Shown one piece after another: positions 2,028 to 37,211 of a stretch of DNA of 38,073 bases; the stretch's first letter is position 1; the number at the start of each line of letters is the position of its first letter. The notes under the pieces were generated by a model. The model saw nothing but the letters and a program-made list of their open reading frames with translations, made no database searches and was not told where the DNA came from. Origin of the DNA: Acidobacteriota bacterium (GTDB lineage Bacteria > Acidobacteriota > UBA4820 > DSQY01); NCBI GenBank assembly GCA_021813555.1, contig JAKAKG010000037.1:1-38073 (forward strand), in the 5' to 3' direction. Position numbers and translations under genes: made by a program.

Positions 2028-3814
2028 CAGGATGGCCGGGACGGCCCCTTTGGCGTTGACTTCCTGCCTTTGGCCGCGGCCTCCTGCCTGACCTGGACCT
2101 GATGGTTGATGATGGCCTGCTGGCCCATGGTCAGGAGGTTGTTGGCCAGCCAGTAGAGGGTCAGGCCGGCGGGAGCCCATAGGCAGATCCAGGTGAACAT
2201 GACGGGCATGAAATAGAGCAGCATCTTCTGGCTCCCCTCCATACCCGTGGAGCTGGTCATCTTGGTGGAGGCGAACATGGACAGGCCCATGAGGATCGGC
2301 GTTACGTAGTACGGGTCCTGCATGGAGAGGTCGTGAATCCACCCAAAGAACGGCGCCCCCCTGAGCTCAAGAGTCTTGGGCAGCAGGGTGAAGAGGGCAA
2401 AGAAAATGGGCATCTGCAGCAGGAGCGGCAAGCAACCGCTCATGCCCCCGAGGGGATTGATGCCCTCCCGCTGATAGAGCCCCATCATTTCTTCGTTCAG
2501 CTTGGCCCGGTTGGCCATGTCCTTGGGCAGCTTCTTATACTTGGCCTTGATGCGGTCGAGCTGGGGCTTGAGCTTCTTCATACCCTCGCCCATTTCCTTC
2601 ATCTTGACCATGGACCGCTGAGTCAGCGGGTAGAAGGCGAGCTTGATGATGAGCGTGAGGAGAAGGATGGCCACCCCGTAGTTTCCCACCAAGCCGTGCA
2701 GGCCCTTGAGGCCCCATAGCAGGGCCGCGCAGATGGGGCTGAGGATGGCGTTGGAAAATCCATAGGAGCCCCAATCCAGGATCCTGTAAAAGGAATCCCC
2801 CATGTCCCGCAATCGCCCGTATTCTTTCGGCCCGATGAAGACCTTCCCCTGCCCGGGGAATCCCACGATGAGGGAGACGGATGAATCCGAAGGGTGGATC
2901 TTTCTTTCCTCAGGGGTGAGCGCGAACGTTTCCAGCGTTACCCCGGTCAGGGGCCGGTCGGGGATAAAGATGGCCGCGAAATAGCCCGTGCTCAGTCCCG
3001 CCCAGGTGTCGCCCCCGGGGAACGTCGTGGCCGATTCCGGCTTCCCGGACCCCACCTTCCGGTCCCGGTCCACCTTCTTGTACCCCTCCGGCGTCACCAC
3101 CGCAAGGAACTCCTGCTGGAAGTACTTGTTCTTCGCCTCTGCCTCCGTCAGGGTCCCCAGGCCCGCGCCCCACGTGAGGGGAACGCTCTCCAGCGCCCTC
3201 CCGCCCTTCAGCGCCGAGACCTGCAGGCCCAGCTCATAGCCTGAGGCGGGCAGCGTGACGGTCTTGGTTACGGCGTTGCCCTTGCCGTCCGCCCAGCTCA
3301 TGCGCAGCCCGTCTGCTCCCTGGAGCCCGGGGATGTGTTCCACGTGGAACAATGCCTCCGACACGGCCTTGTCGAAGGCCGGGTCCCCTGTCCTGACGGC
3401 CAACGGGTAGGCTCCCGTCATGGCCGACAGGGGTGAAACCAGGTCGTCGTTGGGCCCGCCCTTGGCCCGATACTTCTTCAGCACCGCGCTGCGCAAGATG
3501 CCGCCCTTGTTTCCGAATACCAGCCGAAGGTCATCGTTCTCCAGGGTGAAGGTCTCCTCCTTCTCCCCTTGCACCGGCACGGGATTCACCTCGGGAGCCG
3601 CCAGCGCAGCCTGCGGAGCTTGGGCCGAGGCCTGGACCCCCGCCGCCGCCTGAGCCGACACGCCCTTAGTTGCCTGCCCCCCTTGGCCCGGCGCGGCCGT
3701 CGGAGCCTTGCTCCGCATGAAGTAGGTGCTGCCGCCGAAGACGACGGCCATGAGGATCATGGCCCAGATGAGGCGCTTGAAGCTCTGCGGATCTTCCTGT
3801 CCCAGCTGTTCCAT
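2027..3814 (-). CDS. yidC: membrane protein insertase YidC
   Basis: YidC inserts and folds inner-membrane proteins, alone or with SecYEG; Fo subunit c is a classic client. The protein is 595 residues from the ATG at 3814, which has GGGAG about 10 nt upstream. It follows the Gram-negative plan: one N-terminal membrane helix (about residues 14-33), an Ala/Gln/Pro-rich linker, a large periplasmic P1 domain (about 65-330), then the five-helix insertase core. The core includes the segment ending YPLTQRS, which carries the conserved groove arginine, the segment GCLPLLLQMP, and a final helix with the APAGLTLYW motif. The C-terminus is basic (KGRKSTPKGPSRPS), as expected for ribosome contact. It lies between yidD and mnmE. 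Confidence 0.97.
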   Translation of the reverse strand: MEQLGQEDPQSFKRLIWAMILMAVVFGGSTYFMRSKAPTAAPGQGGQATKGVSAQAAAGVQASAQAPQAALAAPEVNPVPVQGEKEETFTLENDDLRLVFGNKGGILRSAVLKKYRAKGGPNDDLVSPLSAMTGAYPLAVRTGDPAFDKAVSEALFHVEHIPGLQGADGLRMSWADGKGNAVTKTVTLPASGYELGLQVSALKGGRALESVPLTWGAGLGTLTEAEAKNKYFQQEFLAVVTPEGYKKVDRDRKVGSGKPESATTFPGGDTWAGLSTGYFAAIFIPDRPLTGVTLETFALTPEERKIHPSDSSVSLIVGFPGQGKVFIGPKEYGRLRDMGDSFYRILDWGSYGFSNAILSPICAALLWGLKGLHGLVGNYGVAILLLTLIIKLAFYPLTQRSMVKMKEMGEGMKKLKPQLDRIKAKYKKLPKDMANRAKLNEEMMGLYQREGINPLGGMSGCLPLLLQMPIFFALFTLLPKTLELRGAPFFGWIHDLSMQDPYYVTPILMGLSMFASTKMTSSTGMEGSQKMLLYFMPVMFTWICLWAPAGLTLYWLANNLLTMGQQAIINHQVQVRQEAAAKGRKSTPKGPSRPS

Positions 3815-7341: not shown

Positions 7342-8862
<1,521 letters not shown>

Positions 8863-27130: not shown

Positions 27131-27151
27131 CTGCCCCCTGTCCCTTGTCCC
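27131..27151. repeat. three-copy 7-bp tandem repeat after the aldolase gene
   Basis: CTGCCCC, CTGTCCC and TTGTCCC stand in perfect 7-bp register (GGGACAA GGGACAG GGGGCAG on the minus strand). It lies six bases beyond the aldolase stop codon. Three copies alone could be chance, but three longer 7-bp arrays exist in other gaps of this window. Confidence 0.45.
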
Positions 27152-27156
27152 CAGAA

Positions 27157-28599
27157 TCAGTCCGCCCTCGGATTGGACTCAGCCGCCTCCACCACTACCT
27201 TCTTGCAGGCGGCGATCTCCGCTTCCCGGTCCGGGGCGGGCGTTTCGGTCTTCACCCAGCGGGCAACCGTCCCCTTCGTATCCCTCACACCGAGCTGGCC
27301 GATGAGGAAAGCGAACTTGGCTTCCAGGGCCGCCCCCACCTCCTCGCGCACCTCCGAGGGGAGGGACCACCACTCCCGCTTCAGGGGTCCGCCGAAACCC
27401 TTCTTGCGAGTTTTGTAGAGGAACTGCTCTTCCGTCTCGCCCTCCTTGCGCTCCTTGGCGAAGGCGCCCCTCAGGTGGTCGTACACGTGGGCCTTGAACT
27501 GGGCGGGGAGGGCGGGGTGATCGTAGATGAGGTTCTGGAAGCCCGTGGCCAAATGGACCTCCACGGCGCCGCTTTGCGGGAAATGGTGGAACATGTCGTC
27601 GGGCAGGGTGGAGGCCCCGTGCTGCACCGTTCCCCCTAGCCCGTAACGGCTGCGGGCCGACTCGGAGATGGCCTTGAGGACGCCGAAATCGAGCTTGACC
27701 TTGGCCACCGTCCCGTCGGGGAGGACCACGCCGCCGTGGCTGGTGCCCGTCTGGACCGAGATCTTGGAGATGCCGCGCACGCCCTCCCCCAGTCCCTTGC
27801 GGTACTCGCCCATGAACGCCTCGAACTCCTCTACGGTGCTGTTGTGGCCCCCTACCTCGCCGATCTCGCCGCCCACGGAGACGGTCGTGCCCTTCGGCTC
27901 CTGCTCCCGAATGAACCGGGTGAGTTCGGCGCAAACGGCTCCGTTGTCCCGCTGCTGTGCGCCCAGGCCTTGGCGCTCCAAAACCACCAAGGTCGAGGAA
28001 TCGATATCGATGTTGTAGAAGCCCGCCCCGATGGACTCGCGAATGAGGGCGCGGAGCCGGTCCACCTCGGCGCCAGGGTCCTGCGCGTAACTTTTGGCCG
28101 CGGCCTGGAAGTGGTCCCCCTGGATGAAGACGGGGCCCGTGAAGCCCTCCCGGATGGCCGCTGCCAGCATGACCGCCACGTATTCATGGGGCCGCTGGTC
28201 GGTGTAGCCCATCTCGCTCTTGGCGATCTCGAAGACGTAGGCTCCGCAGGATGTGGCGTTGGCCGCGCGGTAGAAGGCCCGGGCCGTGTCGTAACTGAGG
28301 CCGCGGATGTTCATGGCCGGCACCGTGAAGGGGCCGGCCTCCCCCCGTCCCGAGGCGAGGTAGAGGTCCTGGATAGAGGCAAGGTGAATGCCCAAGGCAC
28401 GGGCCACGTTTTTGAGGATGAACCGCGCCCGGCCCCGAAGTTCCGGATCGGGGGCGAAGACGGCGGTCCAAACCACGCTGTCGCACAGGGGCCCGTGCCA
28501 TGCCTGGGGATCGGTTACCTTGAGGCCGCCCGCCTCGCCGCAGTGCTCCACCGTTTTATGCACATCGTCGCGCATCTGTTCAAAGGTCGGATAGATCAT
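27157..28599 (-). CDS. class II fructose-bisphosphate aldolase family protein (long form)
   Basis: Class II aldolases are zinc enzymes that cleave or form ketose bisphosphates. The 480-residue protein is clearly longer than the usual 280-360. Family positions can be seen: GDH at Asp162-His163 (catalytic Asp, zinc His), GGEIGEVGG round Glu245, GTSHGG with His288 and VQHGAST with His327. The first ~85 residues form an extra, mostly helical N-terminal region, and the last ~100 residues are a charged extension. It starts at the ATG at 28599 behind AGGAG. I recall similar long proteins annotated as class II FBA; tagatose-bisphosphate or another ketose substrate is possible. It follows a dehydrogenase gene in the same direction. 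Confidence 0.8.
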   Translation of the reverse strand: MIYPTFEQMRDDVHKTVEHCGEAGGLKVTDPQAWHGPLCDSVVWTAVFAPDPELRGRARFILKNVARALGIHLASIQDLYLASGRGEAGPFTVPAMNIRGLSYDTARAFYRAANATSCGAYVFEIAKSEMGYTDQRPHEYVAVMLAAAIREGFTGPVFIQGDHFQAAAKSYAQDPGAEVDRLRALIRESIGAGFYNIDIDSSTLVVLERQGLGAQQRDNGAVCAELTRFIREQEPKGTTVSVGGEIGEVGGHNSTVEEFEAFMGEYRKGLGEGVRGISKISVQTGTSHGGVVLPDGTVAKVKLDFGVLKAISESARSRYGLGGTVQHGASTLPDDMFHHFPQSGAVEVHLATGFQNLIYDHPALPAQFKAHVYDHLRGAFAKERKEGETEEQFLYKTRKKGFGGPLKREWWSLPSEVREEVGAALEAKFAFLIGQLGVRDTKGTVARWVKTETPAPDREAEIAACKKVVVEAAESNPRAD

Positions 28600-28663
28600 C
28601 GGAGACTCCTCTCGGGGCACGGGGCATGGCCCGCATTCATGAACGCCCGCATCCTAGTTATTT

Positions 28664-28691
28664 GCGTCTCGCGTTTCGCGTCTCGCGTTTT
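28664..28691. repeat. four-copy 7-bp tandem repeat between aldolase and dehydrogenase genes
   Basis: GCGTCTC, GCGTTTC, GCGTCTC and GCGTTTT stand in exact 7-bp register, and CGTTTCGC continues the theme. It lies 12 bp after the dehydrogenase stop (minus strand). Confidence 0.75.
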
Positions 28692-28703
28692 CGTTTCGCT
28701 CTT

Positions 28704-29438
28704 TCAAACCGTATTGATTCCCCCATTGAGCGGGATGTACTGCCCCGTCACCCACCGGGCTTCCTCGGAGCAGAGGAAGGCCACGACGCCCCCGATGTCC
28801 TCGGGCTGCCCGACGCGCCGAAGGGGCGTGAAGAGGGCGACTGCCCGCTTCATCTCTTCCGGCTGGTGGGACGTGGCATCCGTTTCCACCAGGCCCGGAG
28901 CCACGGCATTCACGGTGACGCCGCTGGGACCCATCTCACGGGAAAGGACGCGCACGGCGCCGTCGAGGGCCGACTTGGCCGCGGCGTGGGCGCCGAAGCC
29001 GTCGCTCGCAAACCGGGAAAGGCTACTTGAGACGGCCACGATGCGTCCGTGCTTCCGCTCCACCATGCCGGGCCCCACGGCGGCCACGAGGGCGTGGAAA
29101 GCACCCAGCTCTCCTTCGAGCTTGGCCCGCACTTCATCCCACGGCAGGCGCCAGAAGGGTCCCATGGGGAAGTGAATGTTGGCGTTGTGCACCGCCGCTT
29201 CCACGGGGCCCAGCCTGGCCTCCACGGCCTTCACCATGGCGGCCACCTGGCCGTGATCGCGGGCGTCCGCCTGGAAGACGGCGCCTTGGCCCCCGATCTC
29301 CCCCAAAACCTTTTCCGCCAGCTCCGTGTTCTTGAGGCAGTTCACGGCGACGGTGAACCCCTTCGCCGCGAGCCCTCGCACGATGGCGGCTCCGATGCCC
29401 CGGCTCCCCCCCGTTACGAGTGCCACGTGTTGTGCCAT
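28704..29438 (-). CDS. short-chain dehydrogenase/reductase (FabG-like) with His in place of catalytic Tyr
   Basis: The 244 residues form a classical SDR Rossmann fold. The cofactor motif is TGGSRGIG (residues 9-16); small basic residues near it suggest NADP(H). The catalytic Ser is in VSSS (136-139). Two key positions are unusual: the NNAG motif reads HNANI (84-88), and Y-x-x-x-K reads HAAAK, with His151 where the catalytic tyrosine should be and Lys155 kept. The His codon is CAC, one base from TAC. The C-terminal part, including VNAVAPGLVETD and GQYIPLNGG, is FabG-like. AAGGAG precedes the ATG. The substrate is unknown. From memory, His variants exist in actinobacterial FabG-like proteins. 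Confidence 0.85.
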   Translation of the reverse strand: MAQHVALVTGGSRGIGAAIVRGLAAKGFTVAVNCLKNTELAEKVLGEIGGQGAVFQADARDHGQVAAMVKAVEARLGPVEAAVHNANIHFPMGPFWRLPWDEVRAKLEGELGAFHALVAAVGPGMVERKHGRIVAVSSSLSRFASDGFGAHAAAKSALDGAVRVLSREMGPSGVTVNAVAPGLVETDATSHQPEEMKRAVALFTPLRRVGQPEDIGGVVAFLCSEEARWVTGQYIPLNGGINTV

Positions 29439-30632: not shown

Positions 30633-31598
30633 ATGCGTATCTTGTCGGGCATCCAGCCTTCTGGCAAGCTCCACGTCGGGAACTACCTGGGAGCCATGAA
30701 GCAGCACCTGGATCTCCAGGACAAGGGCGAGGCCTTCTATTTCATCGCCGATCTCCACGCCCTCACGACGGTGAAGGAGCCCCAGGCCCTTCGCGACCAC
30801 ATCCGCGATGTGGCCCTGGACTATCTGGCGCTAGGGCTGGACCCCCAAAAGTGCACCTTCTACCGCCAGTCGGACATCCACCAGGTGCCCGAGCTGGCCT
30901 GGATCCTCACCACCGTGACCCCCATGGGCCTGCTGGAGCGATGCCACTCCTACAAGGACAAAGTGGCCAAAGGCATCCCGGCGGACCACGGCCTTTTCGC
31001 GTACCCCGTGCTCATGGCCGCCGACATCCTCATCGTGGATTCCAACGTGGTACCCGTGGGCAAGGACCAGAAACAGCACGTGGAGGTCACGCGGGACATC
31101 GCGGGACGATTTAACAACCTTTACCAGTCCGAGGTTTTCGTGATCCCCGAGGATCGAATCCTGCCCGAGGCGGGCGTGGTCCCCGGCATCGACGGCCAGA
31201 AGATGAGCAAGTCCTACGGCAACGCCATCGACATTTTTCTGGAGGGGAAGGCGCTCAAGGAGCGGGTCTTTTCCGTGGTCACCGACTCGGCTCCCGTGGA
31301 CGCGCCCAAAGACCCGGATTCGAACAACGTCTTCAACCTGCTGAAGCTGTTCGTTTCGGCGGAGGAGCAGGCCGAGTGGCGGGACCGTTTTCTTGCGGGC
31401 GGCCTGAAATACTCCGACGCCAAGAAGCGCCTCCTCCAGGTCCTGGACGAAACCTTCGGCCCCGCGAGGGAGCGGCGCAAGGAGCTTGCCAAGGACAAGG
31501 ACTACGTGGAGGGCGTCCTTCGCGCTGGAGCGGCGCGCGTGGAACCCATCGCCGCCACCACCCTCGCCCGCGCCCGGAGGGCCTGCGGGATCGATTGA
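30633..31598 (+). CDS. trpS: tryptophan--tRNA ligase
   Basis: TrpRS charges tRNA-Trp with tryptophan in the cytoplasm. The 321-residue class I synthetase has the HIGH motif as HVGN in PSGKLHVGNYLGA (residues 10-22). The KMSKS motif is intact in GQKMSKSYGN, and VGKDQKQHVEVTRDIA between them is typical. Length is normal. GGGAGGAG precedes the ATG. It stands alone; a stretch of repeats begins two bases after its stop codon. Confidence 0.97.
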   Translation: MRILSGIQPSGKLHVGNYLGAMKQHLDLQDKGEAFYFIADLHALTTVKEPQALRDHIRDVALDYLALGLDPQKCTFYRQSDIHQVPELAWILTTVTPMGLLERCHSYKDKVAKGIPADHGLFAYPVLMAADILIVDSNVVPVGKDQKQHVEVTRDIAGRFNNLYQSEVFVIPEDRILPEAGVVPGIDGQKMSKSYGNAIDIFLEGKALKERVFSVVTDSAPVDAPKDPDSNNVFNLLKLFVSAEEQAEWRDRFLAGGLKYSDAKKRLLQVLDETFGPARERRKELAKDKDYVEGVLRAGAARVEPIAATTLARARRACGID

Positions 31599-31600
31599 CG

Positions 31601-31640
31601 GGAGCAGGGAGCAGGGAGCGGGAAGCGGGGAGCAGGAAGC
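31601..31640. repeat. 7-bp tandem repeat array (GGAGCAG, about 5.7 copies) after trpS
   Basis: The units are GGAGCAG, GGAGCAG, GGAGCGG, GAAGCGG, GGAGCAG and GAAGC in unbroken 7-bp register, starting three bases after the trpS stop. It is purine-only apart from the C in each unit. Confidence 0.9.
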
Positions 31641-31659
31641 ATCCAACGACAGAACGTCT

Positions 31660-31811
31660 CACCGCGAAGACGCCAAGGATGCCAAGAACGGTTCCCTTTA
31701 GCTTTGAACCCAAGTGTTCATCTTGGTTCCCTCTGCGCTCTTCGCGTCTTAGCGGTTCAGTGTTCGCCTTTATCTCTTGGCCGGCCTCTTGGTGCCCTCG
31801 TGCCTTGGTGG
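31660..31811. repeat. cluster of related intergenic repeats, partly inverted
   Basis: Three related elements lie in this gap. Copy 1 (31660-31690) contains ACCGCGAAGACGCC with AAGGATGCC following. Copy 2 (31721-31758) is inverted; its reverse complement reads GAACCGCTAAGACGCG and then AAGAGCGCAGAGG. Copy 3 (31785-31811), reversed, reads CCACCAAGGCACGAGG then GCACCAAGAGG, matching the repeat at 19238-19268. Copies 1 and 2 could pair as an imperfect hairpin. No coding frame fits; the gap from 31599 to 31811 otherwise holds nothing I recognise. Confidence 0.65.
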
Positions 31812-33044
31812 TCAGATCCATTCCCTTCCCGCCGCGCCGAGGCCCGCGGCTCGCCCCGTGGTCCAAGCCCACTGAAAGTTGTGGCCACCGATGGGCCCGA
31901 AGGCATCCAGCAATTCTCCGCAAAGAAAAAGTCCACGGTGAAGACGGCTCTCCATGGTCTTCGCGTCGATCTCGCCCAAATCCAGCCCGCCCCCCGTCAC
32001 CTCGGCCTTGGCGTACCCCTCGTCGCCCGTCCAGGGCAAGGAATACCGCGTAAGACAGCGGAGGAGCGCGAGCCGCTGATCCCGCCGGAGCTGTGCCGTG
32101 GCCACCCCTGCTTCAAGCCCCGCTTCCCTGCAGAGCGTTTCCCCGAGCCGCGAGGGCAGGTAACCCGCCAGCAGGGAGGACACCACTCGCCGGTGCTGAA
32201 ACAGCCGCTGCTCCCACCCCTTGGCATCCAGCTCCGTCCACTTCACGAAAATGGGCTGCCTCGCCTCCCCCGCAAGCCGGGAGCGAACGGCCATGTGGGA
32301 GATGTTCAGAATCGCCGGCCCGCTGTAGCCCCGGTGGGTGAAGAGGAAGCCGCCCCTCATGGTGATCTTCTTTTTCGGTCCAGGCGCCTCCAGGGTGACC
32401 TCCAGCGAGATGCCCGACAGGTGCGCGTGGACGGGGGGCTCGGCCGTAAGAGGCGTGAGGGCCGGGTAGGCCGGATGGACCCGGTGCCCCAGGCGCGTAA
32501 GGAGATCCAGGCCCCAGCCGTCGCTGCCCGTGGCGGGGACGGACCGCCCCCCCGTGGCAAGGATCACCGCCGAGGCGGCTACGGGCGTTTCCTCGTCGGT
32601 GCTCACCCTCCACCCGTCCGGGCCGGGTTCGAGCCCCTTGGCGCGGACGCCGAACCGGATCTCTACCCCCCTGCCTAGGGCCAGGGTCACGAGGGCGTCG
32701 CGGACCTTCCGCGCGCTGTTGCTTTCGGGAAAGAGCTTGCCCAACGCCTCTTCCAGGACCAGCGCCAGCCCAGCCTCCACCTCGAAGAACCGCCGCTGTT
32801 CGATGAGGGGCCACGAGCGCAGCAGGTTTTTGAGGATGTTGGGGGAGGAATCTGTGACGAACCGCTCGGGGGCCGAAAGCGAGGGGAGGATGTTGCACCG
32901 CCCTCCTCCGCTGATGAGGATCTTCCGGCCCCCGTCCTTCGTGCCTTCCAGCAGCACCACGGAGCGGCCGCGGCCCGCGGCCCAGATGGCCGCCATGAGG
33001 CCCGAAGCTCCCGCGCCCACGACGACAATGGGACGTCCGTTCAT
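31812..33044 (-). CDS. BaiN/HI0933-family FAD-dependent oxidoreductase
   Basis: The 410-residue flavoprotein starts at the ATG at 33044 behind GGAGGG. The N-terminal FAD motif is VVVGAGASGLMAA. Family marks follow in order: ISGGGRCN (about 47-54), ATGGRSVPATGSDG, FTHRGYSGPAILNIS, and near the end VTGGGLDLGEID, then GLFLCGELLDAFGPIGGHN. This is the HI0933/YhiN/BaiN group (NAD(P)/FAD-dependent oxidoreductase). Family members have no settled physiological reaction; BaiN from bile-acid-converting clostridia is one named member. It converges on the repeat cluster after trpS and is divergent from the MFS gene. Confidence 0.9.
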   Translation of the reverse strand: MNGRPIVVVGAGASGLMAAIWAAGRGRSVVLLEGTKDGGRKILISGGGRCNILPSLSAPERFVTDSSPNILKNLLRSWPLIEQRRFFEVEAGLALVLEEALGKLFPESNSARKVRDALVTLALGRGVEIRFGVRAKGLEPGPDGWRVSTDEETPVAASAVILATGGRSVPATGSDGWGLDLLTRLGHRVHPAYPALTPLTAEPPVHAHLSGISLEVTLEAPGPKKKITMRGGFLFTHRGYSGPAILNISHMAVRSRLAGEARQPIFVKWTELDAKGWEQRLFQHRRVVSSLLAGYLPSRLGETLCREAGLEAGVATAQLRRDQRLALLRCLTRYSLPWTGDEGYAKAEVTGGGLDLGEIDAKTMESRLHRGLFLCGELLDAFGPIGGHNFQWAWTTGRAAGLGAAGREWI

Positions 33045-37149: not shown

Positions 37150-37169
37150 GACATCCCCCTGAAAGGATA

Positions 37170-37211
37170 GTGAAAAGGTAATAGTAAAACGTAAAAAGTA
37201 AAGGATTAAAC
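37170..37211. repeat. A-rich 7-bp tandem repeat array (GTAAAAN) upstream of the aldehyde dehydrogenase gene
   Basis: In 7-bp register the units read GTGAAAA, GGTAATA, GTAAAAC, GTAAAAA, GTAAAGG and ATTAAAC. The array lies 21 bp before the aldehyde dehydrogenase ATG (minus strand), where a promoter would be expected, and is strikingly AT-rich for this genome. Confidence 0.75.

Follow-up and report, generated by a model that had tools for sequence, protein, structure and literature searches.

Polar purine-rich tandem arrays, most often of seven-base period, at gene borders in an Acidobacteria-related genome

The window analysed here, a stretch of 38,073 nucleotides, is contig 31 of a 3.30-Mb metagenome assembly in 235 contigs. 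Within it, trpS, encoding tryptophan--tRNA ligase (30633..31598, plus strand; TIGR00233, 287 bits against a cut-off of 177, E 1.6e-85), is followed 1 bp past its stop codon by a GGGAGCR array (31600..31641, plus), the purine-rich strand of which is the trpS sense strand. TRF and direct inspection agree on this array (period 7, 6.0 copies, score 56), and its identity at lag 7 reaches 0.83, the other lags that we tested giving 0.29-0.42. The first-pass annotation had counted about 5.7 copies of GGAGCAG in exact register; the array is real, but it holds six copies, and the register was slightly overstated because of A/G changes in the last three units. The same gap carries a related purine-rich module of about 9-nt units, ACCGCGAAGACGCCAAGGATGCCAAGAACGG (31661..31691, plus), which matches the motif ACCRCNRAGNCRCNRAG and points inwards as the trpS array does, and a converging partner, GAACCGCTAAGACGCGAAGAGCGCAGAGG on the minus strand (31722..31758), with a motif match at 31740 minus. 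A degenerate third module, ACCACCAAGGCACGAGGGCACCAAGAGG on the minus strand (31774..31814), was recognized by reading the sequence; it matches the motif inexactly and hence lies outside the motif-scan count. This module begins inside the stop codon of the convergent neighbour, a gene for an aminoacetone oxidase family FAD-binding enzyme (31812..33044, minus; TIGR00275, 335 bits).

Three further 7-bp arrays had been proposed in the window, and all of them exist, although each is weaker than the trpS array. The GAGACGC/GAAACGC array (GCGTYTC on the plus strand; 28664..28699, minus; found by TRF) is a good one and belongs to a family of 14 loci in our sample; it follows an SDR-family gene (28704-29438, minus) at a distance of 5 bp from the 3' end, with the purine strand as the sense strand. 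The GGGRCAR array (YTGYCCC on the plus strand; 27131..27152, minus) is short (3.1 copies of CTGTCCC by TRF, 80%); its purine strand is likewise sense, and it lies 5 bp past the 3' end of the minus-strand gene at 27157-28620. The GTAAAAN array (37167..37205, plus), which belongs to the AAAAGTG family, is imperfect: it was recognized from the sequence, its lag-7 identity is 0.64, and TRF assigns it a period of 13. It lies 18 bp upstream of the start of a minus-strand aldehyde dehydrogenase gene, the sense strand there carrying pyrimidines, which matches the polarity rule described below. All four window arrays obey this rule, and, as had been claimed, all are intergenic and close to a gene end (each at most 18 bp from a predicted one). 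Their neighbours in the window are mostly housekeeping genes. The view that the host is not a cyanobacterium was also borne out, the nearest trpS relatives being Acidobacteria MAGs (87 and 81%).

To place these arrays in their genomic context, we examined 1.19 Mb (36%) of the assembly, in which our own in-frame hexamer model called 985 genes (86.8% coding); the model is simple, so its start sites are approximate and its stop codons more reliable. When a strict run is defined as 12 or more successive matches at one lag, period 7 yields 143 runs, 127 intergenic and 16 coding, and period 8 yields 43 intergenic runs and one coding run, whereas periods 3-6 and 9-13 give 0-2 intergenic runs each and a fourth-order Markov null predicts about none. 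The predicted genome-wide excess of period 7 in intergenic DNA is thus strong, and the arrays are far from equally common inside genes, the run density per 100 kb being 80.9 in intergenic and 1.55 in coding DNA. TRF found 126 period-7 matches in intergenic DNA and none in five Markov-null simulations; arrays of this class are therefore not a product of chance. Part of the sampled contigs had been selected for GGGAGCR matches; on the 77 contigs that remain when these and the window are left out, 108 intergenic runs at period 7 and 40 at period 8 persist, and the excess is therefore independent of contig choice. The earlier proposal of one shared unit length needs correction, since period 8 is also in excess. 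The 8-bp arrays, whose units include AGATGAGG and AGATGCCG among others, show the same polarity and a sharp four-unit mode (L155 (G000:C219) 8311-8410, L159 (G000:C215) 3448-3675 and others). The sister species G001 yielded no strict run of period 8 in 219 kb.

The longer unit seen in the trpS gap recurs as well. The motif ACCRCNRAGNCRCNRAG has 28 copies in the 1.19 Mb against none for its reversed control, with a polarity of 22:1, and convergence is seen in every one of its six close pairs on opposite strands, including the pair in the trpS gap (31661 plus, 31740 minus). From its sequence, this module of about 9 nt looks like the same array design with a longer unit. A variant of the motif, ACCACAGAGGCACAGAGACACAGAG, occurs in L051 near 1917.

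The units fall into families. In the 1.19 Mb, the 7-mer families comprise GGGAGCR (56 loci), GGGATTT (24), GAGGAGT (21), GAGAGTT, GCGAGAC and an AATTCCG-like unit (14 each) and AAAAGTG (12); among the 8-mers, AGATGAGG has 38 loci and AGATGCCG has 13, in addition to others. The flanks of loci that share a unit are mostly unrelated: only 56 similar pairs were found among 444 flanks, and many of these are duplicates or pieces of composite arrays. Among 39 7-mer unit types, 43 pairs differ by one base, compared with a mean of 16 in letter-shuffled sets (maximum 26 in 50 sets), and single arrays switch units in step, from AAAAGTG to GAGGAGT and from GGAGTGA to GGAGCAG. These one-base links and in-step switches indicate that descent with modification explains part of the unit diversity. 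The units had been described as unrelated and as pointing to a shared mechanism rather than to descent; the strong intergenic excess of period 7 is what a dedicated process was expected to leave, but the units form families that are partly linked by descent. The repeat period outlives the sequence of the unit.

Shared units bear directly on the hypothesis that Mrazek et al. put forward in 2007 (reported in passages of PMC4692102 and PMC4679880), in which plain replication slippage acts on chance seeds, here purine-rich ones, and the footprint of the polymerase sets the period. Array length does change by whole units, and the sharp onset at 7, dropping to 8 and then 9, is what such a footprint would produce. 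However, one unit recurring at dozens of unrelated loci is not what independent births would produce, and plain slippage is already strained by this observation. Two further regularities fall outside its reach, namely the fixed register and the polarity described below, and it predicts a steady fall in number from two units upwards rather than the mode of four units that we observed (54 of 173 7-mer arrays and 31 of 82 8-mer arrays), a typical array having four units or about 26-33 bp. We therefore regard plain slippage as an improbable account of the class.

The register of the arrays relative to the neighbouring gene is fixed in part of the class. The gene-proximal start falls in one phase in 24 of 48 GGRAGCR arrays (4.8 expected), in 12 of 19 GAGGAGT arrays (2.6 expected) and in 13 of 30 AGATGAGG arrays (4.6 expected); with random phase and shuffled flanks, the observed counts were not reached in 300 simulations per family. 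Of the seven families that we tested, only these three have a significantly fixed start and one further family a fixed end; GAGAGTT, GTRAAAA and GACGCNA showed no significant register.

The most pervasive order is polarity. Of 216 arrays in gaps between two predicted genes, 181 have the purine-rich strand directed, 5' to 3', away from the nearer gene and towards the interior of the gap, and the bias remains when one array per gap is counted (113:23; sign test, 1.8e-15). Within 15 bp of a stop codon, the purine strand lies on the gene sense in 79 cases against 6, and 16-50 bp upstream of starts it lies opposite to the gene sense in 33 against 1. Where one gap holds two arrays, the order is purine-then-pyrimidine in 72 cases and the reverse in 6, and the rule extends over convergent (37:6), codirectional (128:21) and divergent (16:8) gaps. 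A general purine-to-pyrimidine gradient across all gaps was rejected as an explanation, since gaps devoid of arrays are flat. The first-pass annotation had missed these forms of order, namely the rule of polarity, the mode of four units and the fixed start register.

One conceivable source of this order is the G-quadruplex, which modules with four G-tracts could fold as DNA or as RNA, as proposed for GGGNATC repeats. The GGGAGCR and GGGATTT modules often begin or finish with a G-tract and hold four tracts, and quadruplex-capable arrays, with four GGG tracts, obey the polarity rule 42:4. Four tracts within loop limits are nevertheless present in only 46 of the 216 placed arrays, and only part of the GGGAGCR family qualifies, whereas arrays with no GGG at all (AAAAGTG, GAGAGTT, GCGAGAC and others) also obey the rule, 68:17. 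Polarity independent of G-tracts removes quadruplexes as a general answer; they are insufficient for the whole class, and we rejected them as a common cause, considering such an origin very unlikely.

A selected gene-border element acting on the transcript, purine-rich after stops and pyrimidine-rich before starts, must be taken more seriously. Such an element might serve in termination or insulation, bind an RNA-binding protein or exert an effect in the 5' leader, and tandem units would be an easy way of constructing it. In its favour, placement at stops is sharp, 85 arrays lying within 15 bp of a stop codon compared with 35 expected from random placement in the same gaps; the arrays are also sparse between divergent genes (7.4 per 10 kb, against 19.6 in convergent gaps), and the four-unit mode speaks for it as well. 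On the other hand, an array is carried by only 132 of the 424 gaps of at least 80 bp, about a third, and the units are too varied for one obvious binding protein. A Rho-loading, pyrimidine-first insulator would require the opposite order in convergent gaps, where we observed purines first, and is argued against on this ground. A terminator or hairpin core between facing arrays was rejected as a general rule, the segments between them being seldom hairpins (z below -1.5 in 7 of 44), which also weighs against a border element. Since polarity relative to the gap and polarity relative to gene sense are inseparable from sequence, a border function stays a serious rival, even though we think it unlikely. 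L170 (G000:C204) contains a pair of similar intrinsic terminators (GGGCCCCGGGG...CGGGGCCCTTTTTT, minus), at about 6015 and 9450, each of which directly precedes an AGTGAAA/AGTAAAA array.

Comparison with relatives reveals how the arrays change. In the sister species G001 (94% identity), arrays occupy the same gaps and differ by whole units: the ortholog of the trpS array is 14 bp (two units) shorter, and differences of 14 and 21 bp occur elsewhere, an array with the GGGRCAR unit at another locus being 14 bp longer in G001. Within the assembly itself, contig 67 ends and contig 82 begins in one and the same locus, the flanks being 100% identical and the arrays 52 and 81 bp long; the 29-bp difference consists of 21 bp (three units) and an 8-bp variant unit and is most readily interpreted as length variation within the population sampled. 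Arrays also stand at contig breaks (C67 end/C82 start and C16 start/C186 end), with length variants between the overlapping contig ends, and repeat polymorphism probably fragments the assembly.

Beyond the species, the units themselves turn over. All three genomes of the genus are rich in the GGGAGCR pattern, which has a single match in one family member outside the genus and is absent from the other 36 relatives searched. The polarity is repeated in G001. Period-7 arrays built from other units are present in G003, from the sister genus, and in G009, from the same order, and they follow the rule beside stop codons in three of three and two of two cases, respectively, small as these numbers are. 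AGTGAAA arrays were found in 9 of 297 genomes of the phylum, with eight or nine places in one distant genome; this unit is mirror-symmetric, and the reversed control of the phylum scan says nothing on its specificity. What follows trpS in G003/G006 and in L051/L052 is not orthologous, so these relatives offer no clean empty site there.

Mobile elements, as remnants or ends of the REP/RAYT or MITE kind, could in principle scatter shared units, and the genome has three Y1 transposase matches, only three, as well as arrays in facing pairs. Yet the flanks are mostly not common to the loci, only 8 of the 72 purine-then-pyrimidine pairs within one gap are complementary, and neither a target-site duplication nor a clean empty site was seen. 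Our flank comparison did not show flanks or terminal inverted repeats that travel with the arrays, as those of a transposon or MITE would, and the arrays are direct repeats rather than the imperfect palindromes of 20-40 bp with a conserved tag that characterize REP/BIME elements. We find a mobile origin scarcely credible.

Taken together, we propose that the trpS array is a member of a lineage-wide class of polar purine-rich modules, most often of 7 bp but also of 8 bp and about 9 nt, which occupy intergenic borders and have arisen by whole-unit slippage and in-register copying to gene edges; we give this reading a probability of roughly 0.45. The first step is shown by our comparisons: an existing array changes its length in place by whole units, as in replication slippage, and its unit mutates and re-spreads inside the array, so that the period outlives the sequence. 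In a second step, which we infer, short modules would be copied in register to new gene edges, independent births by slippage not being the main source. The simplest route may be template switching during repair synthesis: on entering the gap, a 3' end would copy a purine-rich module. The placement would then be retained because selection acts on gene bodies and ribosome-binding sites but leaves the gap free. Periods of 7 and, less often, 8, and almost never of 5, 6, 9 or 10, probably correspond to the shortest workable slip, one that mismatch repair overlooks and that still has sufficient paired duplex for polymerase extension, which is a form of the polymerase-contact idea reported in passages of PMC4692102 and PMC4679880. 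Phase variation is not a likely role of the arrays.

The copying model is supported by the period spectrum (7, then 8, far above all others), units shared among unrelated flanks, the register, the four-unit mode and the polarity. Against it stand four points: the arrays yielded no clean empty site in which copying to a new place could be seen directly; the start register is significant in no more than three of seven families; selection at gene borders would yield polarity and the four-unit mode without directional copying; and no dedicated dispersal enzyme was identified in the genome. The two reverse transcriptases found, which by reading resemble a group II intron type and a Cas6-RT-Cas1 fusion, have no link to the arrays and were rejected as dispersal enzymes. 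The latter is a 959-aa ORF in L268 (G000:C180:4478), which reads as a CRISPR adaptation reverse transcriptase and has an RVT_1 match. A trans-acting process that keeps register could also extend 3' ends at the borders of genes by purine-rich repeats of 7-9 nt, much as in telomere addition or in the insertions made by polymerase theta. It would render both sides of a gap purine-rich inwards and seed the same units across the genome; we consider it very unlikely.

Heptamer repeats in excess have been published for bacteria (as reported in passages of PMC4692102 and PMC4679880), and the period-7 intergenic excess, four-unit preference and strand-specific placement found here are those of Mrazek/Rehm-type heptamers. 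Rehm et al. 2015 (PMC4692102) described intergenic GGGAATC and GGGGA(C/T)T heptamers in Xanthomonas and Nostoc, with four units preferred, located on the sense strand near stops and on the antisense strand upstream of starts, whichever the gene direction. Their place is conserved between species (83%), their length varies between related species, and they are singular or in inverted pairs with no link to mobile elements (PMC4692102). Our arrays share the heptamer unit, intergenic position, four-unit preference, placement by strand and length variation with these repeats. They differ in having many units, mostly lacking four GGG tracts, in including 8-bp and about 9-nt classes, in their measured fixed start register, in facing pairs that are mostly not complementary, and in their host, an Acidobacteria-related MAG in whose relatives the units turn over between genera; GGGNATC and GGGGAYT are not among the main units here (GGGAGCR, GGGATTT, GAGGAGT, GAGAGTT, GCGAGAC and AAAAGTG). 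The STRR sequences of filamentous cyanobacteria, such as the Calothrix heptanucleotides cited in passages of PMC4692102, likewise comprise several distinct heptanucleotide units dispersed in one genome; our host belongs to another lineage, and these passages describe neither polarity nor register. In Geobacter metallireducens, according to passages of PMC2700814, elements of four GGGACCG heptamers occur at 49 places and class 3 sites consist of five MTYCTGA heptamers, proposed to be regulatory RNA elements or sites of global regulators. These elements resemble our arrays in their fixed heptamer number at many places and, in the GGGACCG class, in their purine-rich unit; unlike our arrays, they also lie within genes, and the passages give no polarity. 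The TAACTGA direct repeats of Beggiatoaceae (PMC4679880) are also intergenic heptamers scattered sporadically over distant lineages, but they have one dominant unit and lie mainly upstream of starts.

The array after trpS, one of hundreds in this genome, represents a known bacterial repeat type that is far more ordered here than slippage alone would give. What is new is a polarity rule independent of G-tracts, the 8-bp and about 9-nt classes, a fixed register in several families and the recurrence of the rule with other units in related genera. The preference of bacteria for seven-base repeats has been a question since 2007, and in the present genome and that of its sister species a wealth of units shares a single polarity and a single length mode. 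Slippage in place accounts for the changes in length, but shared units, register and polarity go beyond it and point either to dispersal of short polar modules by some process or to selection at gene borders; any mechanism must explain both the polarity and the shared units.
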